This document shows, one piece after another, positions 6,838 to 17,470 of a DNA stretch of 21,636 nt. Positions within the stretch are counted from its first letter, which is position 1, and each line of letters starts with the position of its first letter. The notes beneath the pieces are model-generated. The model searched no databases and was not told the origin of the DNA. It saw nothing but the letters and a program-made list of their open reading frames with translations. The position numbers and the translations under genes were made by a program. Origin of the DNA: Caldisericota bacterium (lineage in GTDB: Bacteria > Caldisericota > JANLFM01); assembly GCA_024655865.1 (NCBI GenBank), contig JANLFM010000002.1, positions 1 to 21,636 of the forward strand. Direction: 5' to 3'.

Positions 6838-6866
6838 TTTACTTAAGGGTCAGAGGCTTATATCAT
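6838..6866 (+). promoter_or_regulatory. Likely promoter of the zinc-ribbon/sigma operon
   Basis: TTTACT (6838-6843), a 17-base spacer and TATCAT (6861-6866). The start would be near 6873, just before the GGAGG ribosome-binding site. I looked for a SigR-type promoter (GGAAT and GTT about 18 apart) and did not find one. Confidence 0.5.
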
Positions 6867-6893: not shown

Positions 6894-7523
6894 TTGCCAC
6901 TGATTAAATTTGTGAGAAATTACCAAGACCTTTCCACGGATCGGGGATTTCAGTTTGAATTCTTCTGCGACATCTGTGAAAATGGTTACCAGAGCTCCTT
7001 TCAGGCAAGCAAGTCCGGTTCTATAAACGATGCTCTCGATATAGCCGGTGGGGTTTTAGGAGGAATTTTCAGCAAAGCCAGCCACGTAGGGGACAAAGTG
7101 CACTCCGCTCGCTGGGAGAAAGAACACGATCAGGCCTTCATCACTGCCATTGAGGAGGTTAAGGGTCATTTCAAGCAGTGCCTGCGCTGCGGCAAGTGGG
7201 TCTGTCTGGATATCTGCTGGAACGAAGATCGCGGACTGTGTGTTGAGTGTGCCCCCAAGCTTGCAGGAGAAATCGCCCACGCTCAATCCCAGGCTACCTT
7301 GGAACAAATATCGGAGAAGGTCAAAGAGAAGGACTGGACTAAGGACCTCAATCTGGAAGCTCCTGCTGTGGCAGTTTGCCCTAATTGCGGCGCGGATACC
7401 AAGGGGGCCAAGTTCTGTCCAGAATGCGGGACTCCTTTGAGACAAGCCGGGAAGTGTCCTCGCTGTGGTGCCGATACCGGAAACGCTAAATTCTGTCCAG
7501 AGTGCGGTTTGAAGCTCACTTGA
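6894..7523 (+). CDS. Multi-zinc-ribbon protein
   Basis: 209 residues with sixteen cysteines arranged in pairs: C25/C28, C96/C99, C104/C108, C116/C119, and two C-terminal ribbons C162/C165 + C175/C178 and C188/C191 + C201/C204, the last two being near repeats (CPNCGADTKGAKFCPECG and CPRCGADTGNAKFCPECG). It could hold about four zinc ions. A glycine-rich segment (about 44-60) and a helical linker separate the modules. The start is TTG at 6894, chosen because GGAGG lies 8 bases upstream and the N-terminus reads well. It is the first gene of a four-gene operon ending in a sigma/anti-sigma pair. A role as zinc- or thiol-sensing adaptor is inferred from context only. Confidence 0.85.
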   Translation: MPLIKFVRNYQDLSTDRGFQFEFFCDICENGYQSSFQASKSGSINDALDIAGGVLGGIFSKASHVGDKVHSARWEKEHDQAFITAIEEVKGHFKQCLRCGKWVCLDICWNEDRGLCVECAPKLAGEIAHAQSQATLEQISEKVKEKDWTKDLNLEAPAVAVCPNCGADTKGAKFCPECGTPLRQAGKCPRCGADTGNAKFCPECGLKLT

Positions 7524-8683
7524 GCGCAATTCCCGTTCACTTTAAAATTTACGGCCCTGCGCCTCAGGAAGGAGATGGTTCCCTCTTCGTTCAGGAGATG
7601 GGGATCCAGGTAACTCCTGAATTTGGGAGCGCTTTTCTTCTCCCTCATTTCCAGATGGATTGGCTGAAAGAGGAAGATTATTCACTTACCCTGGGATTTG
7701 AGAAAGAAGGGAAGTTAGAGCTATCCCGTCTGGGAGCAAAGAAGGAGGAGGCCTTACGCCAGATCTGGGAGGGATTTCAAAAAGCTTGCTTTAAGGCGCT
7801 TTTCTTAAAGGACGAGGAACTGCGGGGAATCTCTTCTTTAAAAATATCCACTCCAAATTTTACGGAACCTGGAAAAATAGCGGTTTTTCCCTGGGTTTTG
7901 ATTATGTTTGCAAGAGGGAACGGGGTGAAAGTTATCCCTATGCGCTTTTTAAAGGGTGTTTCCTTCGACGAACAGAGCTATTCCGTCCACCTTGAGACAG
8001 CACAGGAACGCTTTTCTCTTTCCCAGTTGGGGGCGCTACGGGAAAAGTTCCTCAGGGATACCAGGGAAGCTTATGAAGCAAGCAATGCTCGCCTTTCCGA
8101 GCTTTTCGGGGAGTATCTTCCCGAAATTGATTCCTTCACCAGACAGGCGCTTTCCGCTCTCCTCTTTAAGGAAGGAACGTTAAGAAAGGTTGATGTAAAA
8201 GATGCGGAAAACTGGGAAGAAATGCTTTCCCTCATCCCCGAGGAGAAAAAAGAGTACGTCAGGATCTTTCTTACGATGGCACCTCCAGAGAACACTTACT
8301 TCGGCCTTGCTCCTTCTCCTTCCTTTAGAAGTGATCTTCCCTACCTTTCATGGTTATCTGCGCAGTTTGGGGACCTCCTGGCCTTCGAGGTCACGTCTAT
8401 AGAGGACTTCGCTACCTACTTTTTCCGCATCCCCGGAAAGACCCCTGAGGAAAAGAAGGAATGGATCAAAAGTGTGCACATCTTCTGGCCCCTTTTAGGG
8501 TTTCACCGGGAGATTCTCTTTAAAGAAGAGGCCGAGTTATCCGAAAGTGAAAAATACTCCACTTATCTCCTTTTAAAACTATTGCCCATTTTTGCTTCAA
8601 TGAGGGAAAATTTCATAAAAAGGGTAATACATACGGAACCTAAGGAATGGGAGAAACAAATTCGAGAAGTGACAGGAAAATGA
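7520..8683 (+). CDS. Uncharacterised protein with two PH-like repeats
   Basis: 387 residues from a TTG at 7520 that overlaps the previous stop (TTGA), which suggests translational coupling; a GTG at 7502 in the same frame would add six residues but has no better ribosome site. Two related modules are visible: about 20-97, ending KLELSRLGAKKEEALRQIWE, and about 115-196, ending ERFSLSQLGALREKFLRDTR. Each has beta strands followed by a helix, which resembles bacterial PH-like folds. The C-terminal half is mainly helical without known motifs. No signal peptide or membrane segment is seen. I do not recognise the family. Its last codons overlap the sigma factor start (ATGA). Confidence 0.8.
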   Translation: MSAIPVHFKIYGPAPQEGDGSLFVQEMGIQVTPEFGSAFLLPHFQMDWLKEEDYSLTLGFEKEGKLELSRLGAKKEEALRQIWEGFQKACFKALFLKDEELRGISSLKISTPNFTEPGKIAVFPWVLIMFARGNGVKVIPMRFLKGVSFDEQSYSVHLETAQERFSLSQLGALREKFLRDTREAYEASNARLSELFGEYLPEIDSFTRQALSALLFKEGTLRKVDVKDAENWEEMLSLIPEEKKEYVRIFLTMAPPENTYFGLAPSPSFRSDLPYLSWLSAQFGDLLAFEVTSIEDFATYFFRIPGKTPEEKKEWIKSVHIFWPLLGFHREILFKEEAELSESEKYSTYLLLKLLPIFASMRENFIKRVIHTEPKEWEKQIREVTGK

Positions 8684-9219
8684 GCAAGGGAAACAGCGAA
8701 GAAAAAAAAGAACTCTTCGAGAAGCAAGCTTTTCCCCTGATGCCCATGCTCTATAGAACGGCCCTGCGCTTGACCCGGAACCAGGCTGACGCTGAGGATC
8801 TCGTCCAGAATACCTTTCTGCGCGCCTTTAACTTTTACGACAAGTTCACCCAGGGGACCTCCTTCAAAGCCTGGATCTTCAAGGTAATGACTAATATTTT
8901 CATCAACGAGTATCGCAAACAGGCCAAGGATCCGCAGAAAGTCTCTCTCGAGGATTACCTCGTGGGTACTCCTGATCCAGAACACCTCTTTTTCGAAAAC
9001 CTCGTGGACGAGGACATCAAGAGGGCCATAGAGGAGTTACCGGATCAATATCGGCTGACTTTCCTCTTATACACCGAGGGTTTTTCTTACAAGGAGATCG
9101 CCTCGATCACTGAGACCAATCTGGGGACGGTAATGTCCCGATTGCACCGGGCGCGACGCTTGTTGCAGGATAAACTTTACCACCTAAGAAAGAGGGAGGT
9201 TCAAGTAAGTGAGCTGTGA
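8680..9219 (+). CDS. ECF sigma factor, SigR-like
   Basis: 179 residues from the ATG at 8680, which overlaps the upstream stop as ATGA; an ATG at 8647 is in frame but lies inside the upstream gene. Sigma region 2 (about 17-84) includes RNQADAEDLVQNTFLRAF and FKAWIFKVMTNIFINEYRK, close to the wording of actinobacterial SigR (thiol-oxidative stress). Region 4 (about 112-165) includes LPDQYRLTFLLYTEGFSYKEIA and the recognition helix NLGTVMSRLHRARRLL. It directs RNA polymerase to a stress regulon and is presumably held inactive by the anti-sigma factor encoded next. Confidence 0.93.
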   Translation: MSKGNSEEKKELFEKQAFPLMPMLYRTALRLTRNQADAEDLVQNTFLRAFNFYDKFTQGTSFKAWIFKVMTNIFINEYRKQAKDPQKVSLEDYLVGTPDPEHLFFENLVDEDIKRAIEELPDQYRLTFLLYTEGFSYKEIASITETNLGTVMSRLHRARRLLQDKLYHLRKREVQVSEL

Positions 9220-9433
9220 ACATTTGATTGAGAAGCTATATCTCTTTATCGATGGAGAGCTTTCCCCAGAAGAGGAGTGCGAAATAGAAGCCCATCTTGC
9301 AGAATGCGTTCAGTGTTTGCGCATTTACGGTTTGGAACTTCAGTTCAAAAGAACGATAATTCAAAAGCTGAAGTGCGAGGAAGTCCCGGCAAGGTTGATG
9401 GAGCGAATTCGGATCGCTCTCGAGGCTTTTTAG
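9209..9433 (+). CDS. RsrA-like zinc-binding anti-sigma factor
   Basis: 74 residues starting at GTG 9209, with GGGAGGT about 9 bases upstream; it overlaps the sigma gene by 11 bases. H29-x3-C33-x2-C36 is the zinc anti-sigma (ZAS) motif. C3 sits 26 residues before H29, the same spacing as C11 to H37 in Streptomyces RsrA, where thiol oxidation expels zinc and frees SigR. C24 and C56 are extra; C56 lies near the place of the RsrA C61/C62 pair. A redox switch is therefore likely but inferred. Its stop codon overlaps that of the convergent glmM. Confidence 0.9.
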   Translation: MSCEHLIEKLYLFIDGELSPEEECEIEAHLAECVQCLRIYGLELQFKRTIIQKLKCEEVPARLMERIRIALEAF

Positions 9434-12779: not shown

Positions 12780-13712
12780 CTAAAGTAGCAGTGCCAGGAT
12801 TGCCTTTTGCACGTGCAACCTGTTTTCTGCTTGATCAAAAATCACGGACTGTGGACCGTCCATTACCTCGTCGGTAATCTCCAGGCCCCTATGTGCGGGC
12901 AGGCAGTGCATCACTATCGCGTCCTTTTTGGCGTGCTTCAAAAGCTTAGATGAGAGCTGGTAAGGTTGGAAGACCTTAAGCCTTTCCTCTTTCTCCTTCT
13001 CCTGGCCCATACTCACCCAGGTATCCGTGTACACCACATCAGCATCACTCACTGCCTGAACGGGATCCTCAAAAATCTCCAATGATCCCCCAGATTCAGA
13101 GGCAAACTTCTCGGCTGTCTTCAGTACTTCCTCAGGAGGACGATACTTTGAGGGAGTCCCTAGCCTGACGTGCAGTCCCAATTTTGTCCCTCCAAAAATA
13201 AGGGAATTGGCCACATTGTTGCCATCTCCCACGTAAGCCAGGGTAAGACCGGAAAGTTTCCCCTTGTGTTCCAAAATAGTGTAAAAGTCGGTGAGCCCCT
13301 GGCAAGGATGGGTAAAATCTGAAAGTCCGTTGATCACTGGAGCTCTTGACCCTTCAGCCAGATCCACCACATCCTGATGCCCGTAAACACGGGCCATGAT
13401 CCCGTCCACATAGCGGCCCAGGACACGGGCAGTGTCCAGAATTGTTTCTCCGATTCGCAGTTGCAGATCGTTTGCAGACAGGAAAAGGGCATGGCCTCCC
13501 AGATGAGCCATGGCCACTTCAAACGAAACTCTGGTTCTGGTAGACGTCTTTTGGAAGACCATGGCCAGAGTCTTTCCCTCTAAAAGGCGAGGGAAATGCC
13601 CCATTTTCGCCAGGGTTTTGAGCTCCGTTGTAGCCTCAAAGACTAACTCTATCTCTTGCCTGGTTAGATCGCGCAGGGAGAGCAAATCCCTGCCTCTAAG
13701 CTCGCTCCTCAT
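12780..13712 (-). CDS. argF: Ornithine carbamoyltransferase
   Basis: 310 residues, standard size. It transfers carbamoyl from carbamoyl phosphate to ornithine, giving citrulline. Motifs: STRTR (57-61, phosphate binding), HPCQ (135-138), GDGNNV (162-167), DTWVSMG (230-236, ornithine side) and HCLPAHRG (269-276) with the catalytic Cys. A good AAAGGGAGG precedes the ATG. No other arginine-synthesis gene is in the window; instead it follows a racemase and an aminotransferase that could share ornithine as substrate. It might work in the anabolic or the catabolic (arcB-like) direction. Confidence 0.95.
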   Translation of the reverse strand: MRSELRGRDLLSLRDLTRQEIELVFEATTELKTLAKMGHFPRLLEGKTLAMVFQKTSTRTRVSFEVAMAHLGGHALFLSANDLQLRIGETILDTARVLGRYVDGIMARVYGHQDVVDLAEGSRAPVINGLSDFTHPCQGLTDFYTILEHKGKLSGLTLAYVGDGNNVANSLIFGGTKLGLHVRLGTPSKYRPPEEVLKTAEKFASESGGSLEIFEDPVQAVSDADVVYTDTWVSMGQEKEKEERLKVFQPYQLSSKLLKHAKKDAIVMHCLPAHRGLEITDEVMDGPQSVIFDQAENRLHVQKAILALLL

Positions 13713-13724
13713 ATATTCCTCCCT

Positions 13725-15044
13725 TTAAATCGCTGGAAGCTTTTCCCGGATAATTTCCTCTAAATCCGGGTGGCCCACTTCCTCCAGTTCATAATAAACC
13801 CGAACGGTTTCCTTGTTAATCTTCAGGAATCTGGTTAAGTTAATAGGTGTGCCTACGATCACCAGGTCACAATCCGCGGCGTTAATGGTCTCTTCAAGCT
13901 CTTTCATCTGCTTCTCTCCGTAACCCATAGCAGGGAGCACGTCCGTAAGGTGGGGGTATTTTTTAAAGGTTTCCCTGATTGACCCCTTGGCAAAGGGGCG
14001 AGGATCGACGATTTCCCTGGCTCCCGCCCTTTTTGCCGCTATATAGCCAGCGCCAAAACCCATTTCCCCATGGGTCACTGTAGGGCCGTCCTCCACTACG
14101 AGCACTCGTTTTCCTTTGATGGCGTCCAGATTTTCCGCCTTTATCGTGGACCGCGCCTCAATTATTAAGGCATTGGGGTTTAAACACTCCAGAGATCTGC
14201 GCACGGTCTCCACTTGCTCCCGGGAAGCCGTATCCACTTTGTTGATGATCAGGACATCCGCCATCCTGCTGTTGGTCTGTCCGGGGTGATAGAGACGCTC
14301 GTGTCCCGGTCGCAGGGGATCAGCAACCACGATCTTTAAATCGGATACGTAGAAGGAAAAATCGTTGTTTCCCCCATCCCAGACTATAACTTCCGCTTCC
14401 TTTTCGGCTTCCTTCAAAATAGCACCATAATCTACGCCAGAATAGACAATAGCTCCTCGTTCAATATGGGGCTCATACTCTTCCCTCTCCTCGATCGTGC
14501 ACTTGTAGTTGATCAGGTCCTCTAAAGTGGCGAAGCGCTGTACAGCCTGTTCCTCTAAATTGCCATAGGGCATGGGATGCCGGATTACTACCACTTTTTT
14601 CCCCATCTTCCTTAAGATGGCCACTACCCGTCGGGTAGTCTGGGATTTCCCCGAGCCCGTGCGCACTGCACAAACGGAGACTACAGGCCTGATGCTCTTG
14701 AGGGAAGTGTTTCCTGGCCCCAGAAGGACGAAATTGGCTCCGACAGCCATGGCTTCCGCGGCCTTACCCATCACGTACTCGTTGGAGACGTCGGAGTAAG
14801 CAAAAACAACGTCATCTACTTTAAACCTTTTGATTAAATTCGTGAGCTCCTGCTCACTATAAATAGGAATACCTTTCGGATAGAGCTTCCCAGCCAGCGC
14901 TGGTGGGTAAATCCTGCCTTCGATGTCGGGAATCTGGGTGGCAGTGAAGGCTACAACTTCGTAGTTTTCGTTGTTCCGATAAAATACGTTGAAGTTATGA
15001 AAGTCCCTTCCAGCTGCCCCCATAATCAAAACTTTTCTCTTCAT
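13725..15044 (-). CDS. Cyclic-2,3-diphosphoglycerate-synthetase-like P-loop GTPase
   Basis: 439 residues. The N-terminal part (1-120) looks Rossmann-like (KVLIMGAAGRDFHNFNVFYR). A P-loop domain follows, with Walker A RTGSGKS (128-134), a VWDGGNNDFSF block (221-231) and NKVD (268-271), the guanine-specificity motif of GTPases. This layout matches proteins annotated as cyclic 2,3-diphosphoglycerate synthetase, an ATP-using archaeal enzyme. With NKxD and this context, a GTPase role linked to ornithine or carbamoyl phosphate metabolism seems at least as likely. The ATG follows AAGGAGG and overlaps the racemase stop as ATGA; the carbamoyltransferase follows after 12 bases. Confidence 0.85.
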   Translation of the reverse strand: MKRKVLIMGAAGRDFHNFNVFYRNNENYEVVAFTATQIPDIEGRIYPPALAGKLYPKGIPIYSEQELTNLIKRFKVDDVVFAYSDVSNEYVMGKAAEAMAVGANFVLLGPGNTSLKSIRPVVSVCAVRTGSGKSQTTRRVVAILRKMGKKVVVIRHPMPYGNLEEQAVQRFATLEDLINYKCTIEEREEYEPHIERGAIVYSGVDYGAILKEAEKEAEVIVWDGGNNDFSFYVSDLKIVVADPLRPGHERLYHPGQTNSRMADVLIINKVDTASREQVETVRRSLECLNPNALIIEARSTIKAENLDAIKGKRVLVVEDGPTVTHGEMGFGAGYIAAKRAGAREIVDPRPFAKGSIRETFKKYPHLTDVLPAMGYGEKQMKELEETINAADCDLVIVGTPINLTRFLKINKETVRVYYELEEVGHPDLEEIIREKLPAI

Positions 15045-16132
15045 AAGCCCTCCTTAAAGTAATCTGATGGGGTAAATTTTTTCTCCACATACGGTGAAAC
15101 CGATGCCCGGAGAATAGCCTGATAAGAAAGCGCAAAACTAATCGTTTCACCCACCACCGTAGGAACCTCCCTCTCTGTGACATCCAGAACAAGATGGTCT
15201 GAGGAAGCACCAACGATTTTTATCCCTTTATCCAGAGGAGATATTTTTCCCAGATCCACGTCAATTCTGCCCAGGGAAAGGACTGCCCTTTTGCGGGGCT
15301 CTGTCTCTAAGAGAGAGGTAACTTCACCAAAAGCGTTCCTTCCTAAAGGAGCAGTATCTTCAGCCTGTTTGGTCTCTACTTCCAGAACCGTGGCACGAAG
15401 GATACAGGTATCCTGCCTCGTCCCGGGGACCAGACGGTCTCCGGAAGTATCTGTGCCGCAGACGATAGCCTCTCCTATGCGCAACTGGTTGATGCCCCTG
15501 GGCATTTCCCCTTTTTCCAATAAGCCCAGGCTCACAGTAGCTCCACCAGAGTAAACCTCAAGCGGTCTTCCTATGGCCTGTTCCACTTCCTTCCCGGCCT
15601 GAACGAACAGGCTGGTGTTCTCCTTGGTGGGGAGCACCCCGCTCAAACAGGCAAAGTTCGCGGAAACGCCCAGAAGCTCTAACCCCTTGAGTTTTTCCAC
15701 CTCCACTGCCAGCTCGGGGAGCTTTTCAGGAAGGATCCCTTCCCTTAAATCGCCACATTCTACAGCAAGAAGGACTTTGTGCCGCCGCCCCAGCGTTAGG
15801 GCTGCCCGGGAAAGGATCTTCATGGTCTCCAGTGATGTGTTTATGCTGATATCAGCGGTCTCCACCGTAAGTTTCGCTTCCAGGGGAGAGGGAGGTCTAA
15901 GGAGCATTAAGGGAACATTCAGGCCCGCCCTTTTCAGGTTAACTAAATTAGGCAAGCGCGAATCGGCAATCCCTGCTACCCCACCGCGAACCATAGCCCA
16001 GGCTACAGGAGGATAACCACAGGTTACTTTTGTAACTCCGAATACATTTATCCCCGCGCTCTGGCAGATGAGGACAACGTTTCTGGCGTTCTCCTCTATG
16101 TGGTTAAGGCGGAAAACTAACTGAGGGTACAT
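15041..16132 (-). CDS. Ornithine/alanine-type PLP racemase
   Basis: 363 residues of the alanine-racemase-like fold (TIM barrel plus beta domain). K35 in FGVTKVTCG is the expected PLP lysine. The N-terminus YPQLVFRLNHIEENARNVV and the ADSRLPNL segment resemble clostridial ornithine racemase (Orr), which makes D-ornithine for ornithine fermentation. The adjacent carbamoyltransferase favours ornithine over alanine, but this is inference. It starts 3 bases after the aminotransferase stop and overlaps the GTPase gene by 4 bases. Other steps of the D-ornithine pathway (aminomutase, thiolase) are not seen in this window. Confidence 0.85.
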   Translation of the reverse strand: MYPQLVFRLNHIEENARNVVLICQSAGINVFGVTKVTCGYPPVAWAMVRGGVAGIADSRLPNLVNLKRAGLNVPLMLLRPPSPLEAKLTVETADISINTSLETMKILSRAALTLGRRHKVLLAVECGDLREGILPEKLPELAVEVEKLKGLELLGVSANFACLSGVLPTKENTSLFVQAGKEVEQAIGRPLEVYSGGATVSLGLLEKGEMPRGINQLRIGEAIVCGTDTSGDRLVPGTRQDTCILRATVLEVETKQAEDTAPLGRNAFGEVTSLLETEPRKRAVLSLGRIDVDLGKISPLDKGIKIVGASSDHLVLDVTEREVPTVVGETISFALSYQAILRASVSPYVEKKFTPSDYFKEGL

Positions 16133-16135
16133 AGG

Positions 16136-17470
16136 CTAATTCTTCAAAGCATCAATAATTGCTTCCCGGAGGATCTCCAGGCCTTTCTCCACTTCCTCCC
16201 GGTTGATCACCATGGCAGGCGTGAACCTGATGGCTGATGTGCCGCAAGGGAGGAGAAGGAGGCCTTTTTTGTAGCAATTTTCTATGATTCGATCGCGCAG
16301 TTCCCGGGCTGGCGTTTTGCTCTCCCTATCCTTCACTAACTCGATAGCCAGCATCAAACCAAGACCGCGCACATCCCCGATTTCCTCGAACTCCTTCTTT
16401 AAATCCAGGAGACCTTGTTTGAAGACTTCCCCCATCCTCCTGGTATTCTCGAGGAGATTCTCTCCCTCAATGGCCTCAATTGTAGCCAGAGCAGCTACTG
16501 CGGAGATTGGGTTTCCACCGAAGGTGTTGGAATGCCTGCCCTGAACGGGAAAGTCCAGTTCTGCCTTGAATACTGTGGCTCCCATGGGAAGACCTGAGGC
16601 CATAGCCTTACCCAGGTTGATCACATCCGGGACGACGCCGAAATGTTCGATGGCAAACATTTCCCCAGTTTTCCCGAAACCGGCCTGGACTTCGTCCGCT
16701 ACAAAGAGGATGCCGTATTTCTCGCAGATCTTCTTGATCTTTTGCACGAATCCTGCAGGGGGGACCACATAACCTCCTTCCCCCTGAACCGGTTCCATAA
16801 AAACGGCAGCCACTTCCTCCGGGGGAAGAACGGATTTAAAATAAACGTCCTCCAAAATTTGCGCACACCAGAAATTGCAGGTATCTGGCTTCATCTTGTA
16901 GGCACAGCGGTAACAGTAAGCGAAAGGAAGGTGAGTTACTCCAGGCATCATGGGGAAGAAGGATTCTCTCTGCACAACCTTGGAGGCTGTAAGTGCTAAA
17001 GCGCCAAGGGTCCTTCCGTGGAAAGCGCCAAGAAAGGCTACAAACTGCTTTCTTCCAGTGCTGGAACGGGAAAGCTTCAATGCTGCTTCATTGGCTTCCG
17101 CTCCCGAGTTGGAAAGGAAAACCTTTTTAGGAAAATCTCCCGGAGTGATTAAGCATAGCTTTTCCGCAATTTTGCTCTGGACTTCGTAGTAGAAATCCGG
17201 TCCGTTGAAAAAGAGGAATTTTTCCGCCTGGTCCTTAATGGCCTGGACCACTTTGGGATGGCAATGTCCGGTACCCGCTACCATACCATTTGTGAAATCC
17301 AGAAAGAGGTTGCCGTCCACATCCTCAAACCGCACTCCCCTCCCCCACTTGATTGCCACCGGTGAGCCCTTGGTTCCCGTGGCAAGGTATTTATCATCCA
17401 TGGCTACAATTCTCTGAGTCTCTTTTCCTGGAATCGGAACGCTTATTTTTGGGCCCTCTGTCAAGCGCAT
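16136..17470 (-). CDS. Class III PLP aminotransferase (ornithine/acetylornithine/GABA type)
   Basis: 444 residues. PLP-binding features: SGAEANE (122-128), FHGRT (150-154), DEVQ (259-262) and the Schiff-base lysine K288 in NLGKAMASG. The long form with an N-terminal extension is like archaeal-type ornithine or GABA aminotransferases rather than short ArgD. C186, C189, C198 and C202 (YCYRC...CNFWC) form a four-cysteine insert that could bind a metal. The ATG follows TTAGGAGG. It is the first gene of the seven-gene minus-strand group and may supply or consume ornithine; the exact substrate cannot be read from the sequence. Confidence 0.88.
   Translation of the reverse strand: MRLTEGPKISVPIPGKETQRIVAMDDKYLATGTKGSPVAIKWGRGVRFEDVDGNLFLDFTNGMVAGTGHCHPKVVQAIKDQAEKFLFFNGPDFYYEVQSKIAEKLCLITPGDFPKKVFLSNSGAEANEAALKLSRSSTGRKQFVAFLGAFHGRTLGALALTASKVVQRESFFPMMPGVTHLPFAYCYRCAYKMKPDTCNFWCAQILEDVYFKSVLPPEEVAAVFMEPVQGEGGYVVPPAGFVQKIKKICEKYGILFVADEVQAGFGKTGEMFAIEHFGVVPDVINLGKAMASGLPMGATVFKAELDFPVQGRHSNTFGGNPISAVAALATIEAIEGENLLENTRRMGEVFKQGLLDLKKEFEEIGDVRGLGLMLAIELVKDRESKTPARELRDRIIENCYKKGLLLLPCGTSAIRFTPAMVINREEVEKGLEILREAIIDALKN

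Follow-up and report, generated by a model that had tools for sequence, protein, structure and literature searches.

How are a multi-zinc protein and a PH-like protein connected to a thiol-type sigma factor and its zinc anti-sigma factor when all four are encoded by overlapping genes? The question is raised by positions 6894-9433 of a 21,636-nucleotide stretch of Caldisericota DNA (the window; source genome G000, 1.82 Mb in 63 contigs), where the following genes are located.

6894-7523, plus strand: gene A, TTG start with the Shine-Dalgarno sequence aggaggt; 209-residue zinc-ribbon protein with 16 cysteines
7520-8683, plus strand: gene B, TTG start; 387-residue protein comprising a tandem pair of PH-like domains and, at the C-terminus, an alpha/beta domain
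8680-9219, plus strand: gene C, ATG start; ECF sigma factor, SigR/SigH-like
9209-9433, plus strand: gene D, GTG start; 74-residue soluble CHCC zinc anti-sigma factor

In the G000 sequence, adjacent genes overlap by 4 bases (TTGA, A and B), 4 bases (ATGA, B and C) and 11 bases (C and D), and a strong Shine-Dalgarno-like sequence is present 5' of A and of D. These coordinates and overlaps match those of the initial annotation, and its description of the products is likewise upheld: A, taken as a zinc-ribbon protein, has 16 cysteines by count and a Pfam DZR match above cut-off; B, called PH-like and unrecognised, contains PH-like domains in its predicted structure and belongs to no Pfam or NCBIfam family above cut-off; and C and D, regarded as a thiol-type sigma factor and a zinc anti-sigma factor, have Pfam sigma-factor and zf-HC2 matches, respectively, above cut-off, with CHCC ligands in D. 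Judged by this layout, A-B-C-D is one operon. An Rfam scan of the window gave no match, and no PADLOC anti-phage defence model matched A, B, C or D at E ≤ 0.01.

The sigma factor and anti-sigma factor have clear relatives. C matches Pfam Sigma70_r2 and Sigma70_r4_2, and its best solved relatives are Mycobacterium tuberculosis SigH entries (E = 4.4e-41 and 3.4e-38). TIGR02947 (SigR/SigH) is the top scorer for C among 102 NCBIfam models, yet its 157.8 bits are under the cut-off of 251.55; D reaches 62.2 bits with TIGR03988 (RsrA), 0.3 bits short of the cut-off of 62.5. As both proteins score under the equivalog cut-offs, they are termed RsrA-type here and not RsrA or SigR equivalogs. The zinc ligands of RsrA are Cys11, His37, Cys41 and Cys44, and the N-terminal ligand cysteine is required for redox sensing (PMC4960319). 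RsrA is also the best PDB relative of D (5frf; E = 2e-6), and D aligns with it over nearly the full length, with C3, H29, C33 and C36 at the four ligand positions (the PDB construct has Ser at 41). These four residues are invariant in five genomes.

The pair can be compared with SigR-RsrA of Streptomyces and SigH-RshA of Mycobacterium, which combine an ECF12 sigma factor with a CHCC zinc anti-sigma factor and in which the ECF sigma factor is likewise followed by a soluble, single-domain CHCC anti-sigma factor. Unlike in those systems, both proteins here fall under the equivalog cut-offs, no canonical SigR promoter was found and two unrelated genes are located 5' of the pair. ECF12 class I anti-sigma domains were restricted to Actinobacteria in the data set of one study (PMC7406223), and ECF270 and ECF271 have been named as ZAS-linked groups (PMC8999054). 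The five D sequences of the family described below were used to search 201 Chloroflexota and 201 Armatimonadota genomes, and D-like matches were obtained in 84 and 169 of them, respectively. At the best 40 of these loci, the short CHCC layout and a nearby C-like ECF sigma gene were present in every case, as in C-D; unlike in the present operon, neither A nor B was encoded nearby in any of the 40 (flanks of ~1.5 kb). Within the phylum, RsrA-like matches are confined to this family except for one weak match in another family. By sequence comparison, C-D is an ordinary RsrA-type pair and adds one more member to an established kind.

Conservation of the whole operon was assessed in the family, for which a small sample of five genomes (G000-G004) was available, all draft metagenome-assembled genomes labelled Caldisericota or Coprothermobacterota. 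G001 (labelled Caldisericota) is of the same genus as G000, G004 and G002 are labelled Coprothermobacterota, and G003 (~340 contigs) represents a third genus. The order A-B-C-D is present in four of the five (G000, G001, G004 and G002; two genera), with a contig end interrupting the operon inside A in G002. Amino acid identities to G000 are 85% (A), 50% (B), 93% (C) and 81% (D) in the same-genus genome, and 68, 31, 64 and 43% in the second genus. This conservation of all four in relatives supports their being real, coding genes. Consecutive overlaps along A-B-C-D are 4, 20 and 11 bases in G001, whereas in both G004 and G002 a gap of 3 bases between A and B is followed by overlaps of 46 and 1 bases. 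Compared with B of G004, that of G002 (L009, 233-1354) is missing ~29 residues from its middle helical part.

In G003, C-D is present without A-B, between smpB and glmM. The sigma pair is flanked by smpB and glmM both in G003 (L040, 2201-4992) and in G001 (L007, 2906-9492), indicating that the locus is common to the family and that A-B is its variable part. G003 carries B elsewhere, on a contig different from that of the sigma pair, in a row consisting of B, another gene encoding a double zinc ribbon, an A of Clostridial type and a gene of the Spore_YtfJ family (L010, 4610-7827). The A protein of this row groups with Clostridial A proteins (support 100/96 inside a 100/100 branch) and apart from those of its own family, so that the row is a differently related module and not a relocated copy of the same one. 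B was detected in five of 54 genomes of the phylum, every one of them in this family, and in none of the others.

Protein A consists of an N-terminal domain with conserved CxxC pairs and a C-terminal double zinc ribbon. The DZR match (38.1 bits, cut-off 27.3) covers residues 162-205, leaving the N-terminal 120 residues outside, and the cysteines are mostly invariant across 49 sequences; about four zinc ions are predicted to be bound by each A. The structure model of A is of moderate quality (mean pLDDT 74.9), and a fold search with it returned no solved structure at E ≤ 0.001, which does not by itself indicate a new fold. Among the genome stretches scanned, 229 relatives of A were found, in Chloroflexota, Bacillota, Armatimonadota, Acidobacteriota and others. 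Their neighbours mostly change from one relative to another, and B is the recurring gene directly after A across phyla. The Filifactor zinc-ribbon protein FA519, which is associated with oxidative stress, was set aside as a relative of A by its description, in which only two CxxC motifs, C-terminal ones, are named (PMC8579941). PSP/YdjFGHL operons with zinc ribbons were taken as an analogy only (PMC11237479).

Protein B gave no match as a single-sequence query against genome contigs, and an alignment query was needed to find its relatives. Its model (mean pLDDT 88.4, pTM 0.86) comprises a PH-like domain at ~1-93, a second at ~100-199 and an alpha/beta domain at ~200-387. In the model each PH-like domain has seven strands and a helix, with the barrel closed by the C-terminal helix, and the PH-like label is therefore right. 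Double-PH proteins such as Pob3 are the top Foldseek matches (E = 2.2e-5); in VIA comparisons, the first domain aligns with 1j0w (Z 12.1, rmsd 2.1, 90 aligned residues) and the second with 5yqr (Z 13.6, rmsd 2.1, 95 aligned residues). The FACT double-PH domains (Pob3 and Spt16) and other PH proteins share with B the fold and the tandem arrangement of two PH-like domains, but identity is ~12% and the C-terminal domain is a different one; the likeness shown is one of fold. Tandem-PH proteins of this kind are protein-binding platforms.

A and B also occur together outside the family. B comes immediately after A at the Clostridial loci L118, L121, L122 and L123 and at the Armatimonadota loci L104 and L098. 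A search with B only, outside the phylum, revealed ten further genomes, of Clostridia and Armatimonadota, and in nine of them A adjoins B (the exception is G220). Two of the loci, those of G097 and G186, have a small zinc-ribbon gene between the two, in the order B, zinc ribbon, A. The order A then B in Clostridia and Armatimonadota is that of the present operon; unlike in the present operon, no RsrA-type pair is beside it, and the Armatimonadota A-B flanks read (~1.5 kb) contained no sigma or anti-sigma match. Some Clostridial B proteins lack the middle helical part, and at Armatimonadota loci L177-L184 a second, partial A-like stretch is often found on the far side of B (A-B-A'). No description of this two-gene module was found in the literature searched. 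A-B is an independent two-gene module present in at least three phyla.

A promoter scan placed one candidate site upstream of A.

6838-6866, plus strand: sigma70-type promoter-like site, TTTACT-17-TATCAT, upstream of gene A

As the scan returned seven sites, compared with 2.7 ± 1.8 in shuffled sequences, this site is weak by the scan alone; the same hexamers with the same 17-base spacing are present upstream of A in G001. The operon would probably be transcribed from this conserved sigma70-type promoter and translated through the overlapping gene ends.

A and B might instead be members of the regulon of C: they would be targets of C in its own autoregulated operon and, following disulfide stress, would repair or buffer zinc proteins. 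Autoregulation is established biology for SigR-type operons, and the layout points to a single transcript for all four genes. However, the SigR pattern GGAAT-N16-19-GTT is absent from the operon leaders of G000, G001, G004 and G002 and from the region before the sigma gene in G003, and the conserved upstream site is sigma70-like. The thioredoxin genes inspected likewise had no convincing SigR-type site immediately 5' of them. Genome-wide, GGAAT-N17-19-GTT occurs 263 times against 190 for the reversed control in G000 (1.4x) and 317 against 157 in G001 (2x), an excess which is not decisive; the lineage could also use a promoter motif differing from the SigR consensus. With no canonical SigR promoter 5' of the operon, autoregulation by C is not supported by these sequences, and it and the status of A-B as targets of sigma C are unproven; on balance, regulon membership is an unlikely account of A-B. 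A closer tie has been considered in which A-B forms a genuine additional layer within the switch: the zinc-thiolate sites of A would provide a second sensor, of redox state or of zinc, and the PH domains of B would dock the sigma or anti-sigma factor, thereby tuning the release of C. The richness of A in zinc-thiolate sites, the protein-binding role of the tandem-PH matches of B and the tight linkage over two genera, with genes overlapping or nearly touching, are consistent with such a layer, but C-D does without A-B at the G003 locus and at all 40 loci examined in other phyla, A-B is widespread without C-D, and B has diverged between genera much faster than C (31 and 64% identity), which is unexpected for a tight partner. 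We regard this extra layer as distinctly unlikely, and the same doubt applies to the proposal that A and B form a conserved bacterial complex which the present family has connected to its thiol-responsive switch, where it would supply a second input of zinc or redox signals or a platform for docking the sigma factor. At the other extreme, A-B might be a neutral insertion that separates smpB from the sigma pair and is merely carried along, without a functional tie. The A-B-free locus of G003 and the autonomy of A-B elsewhere would fit such an insertion, but order and close packing have been kept in two genera although B is down to 31% identity, and mere carriage is very improbable.

The reading that we favour, and consider reasonably probable, is that C-D is an RsrA-type redox switch and that in one family its operon also holds a phylum-spanning zinc-ribbon/double-PH module, which is probably co-expressed with the switch and is not an obligate part of it. 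A-B is separable from the switch because C-D occurs without A-B and A-B occurs without C-D. The close packing of all four genes across two genera despite the divergence of B speaks for a link that goes beyond accident, and this counts against the favoured reading. The proposal of an undescribed four-part system in the initial annotation thus stands in part: there is an operon, and the association is kept in two genera of one family, whereas membership of A and B in the sigma system itself is not supported, each module occurring alone. The same holds for the expected conservation of the neighbourhood, which extends to four of the five family genomes and breaks down beside C-D in G003 and at the 40 loci examined in Chloroflexota and Armatimonadota. 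Production of the four proteins in a fixed ratio, and roles of A and B as sensors or zinc stores, which that annotation also proposed, are conjectural. The union of A-B and C-D is a family-level variant, and the new elements are protein B and its conserved pairing with A.

In the favoured reading, and by analogy with RsrA, zinc-bound D (C3-H29-C33-C36) would hold sigma factor C; disulfide stress would join C3 of D to C33 or C36, upon which zinc would leave and C would be freed. A and B would probably constitute a joint cytoplasmic protein-protein module, built from a multi-zinc-ribbon protein and a tandem-PH scaffold, and their supply would be tied to the switch by the shared transcript. With the sigma half of the operon, RsrA-type redox switches gain a representative in a little-studied lineage. 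The A-B half brings to light a gene pair that spans three phyla or more and whose double-PH protein is unnamed by Pfam and NCBIfam models, and the operon offers this pair a testable context, namely thiol and zinc stress. Elsewhere in the window, a row of minus-strand genes at 12780-17470 presumably encodes carbamoyltransferase, P-loop/cyclic-diphosphoglycerate-synthetase-like, alanine-racemase-like and aminotransferase proteins.
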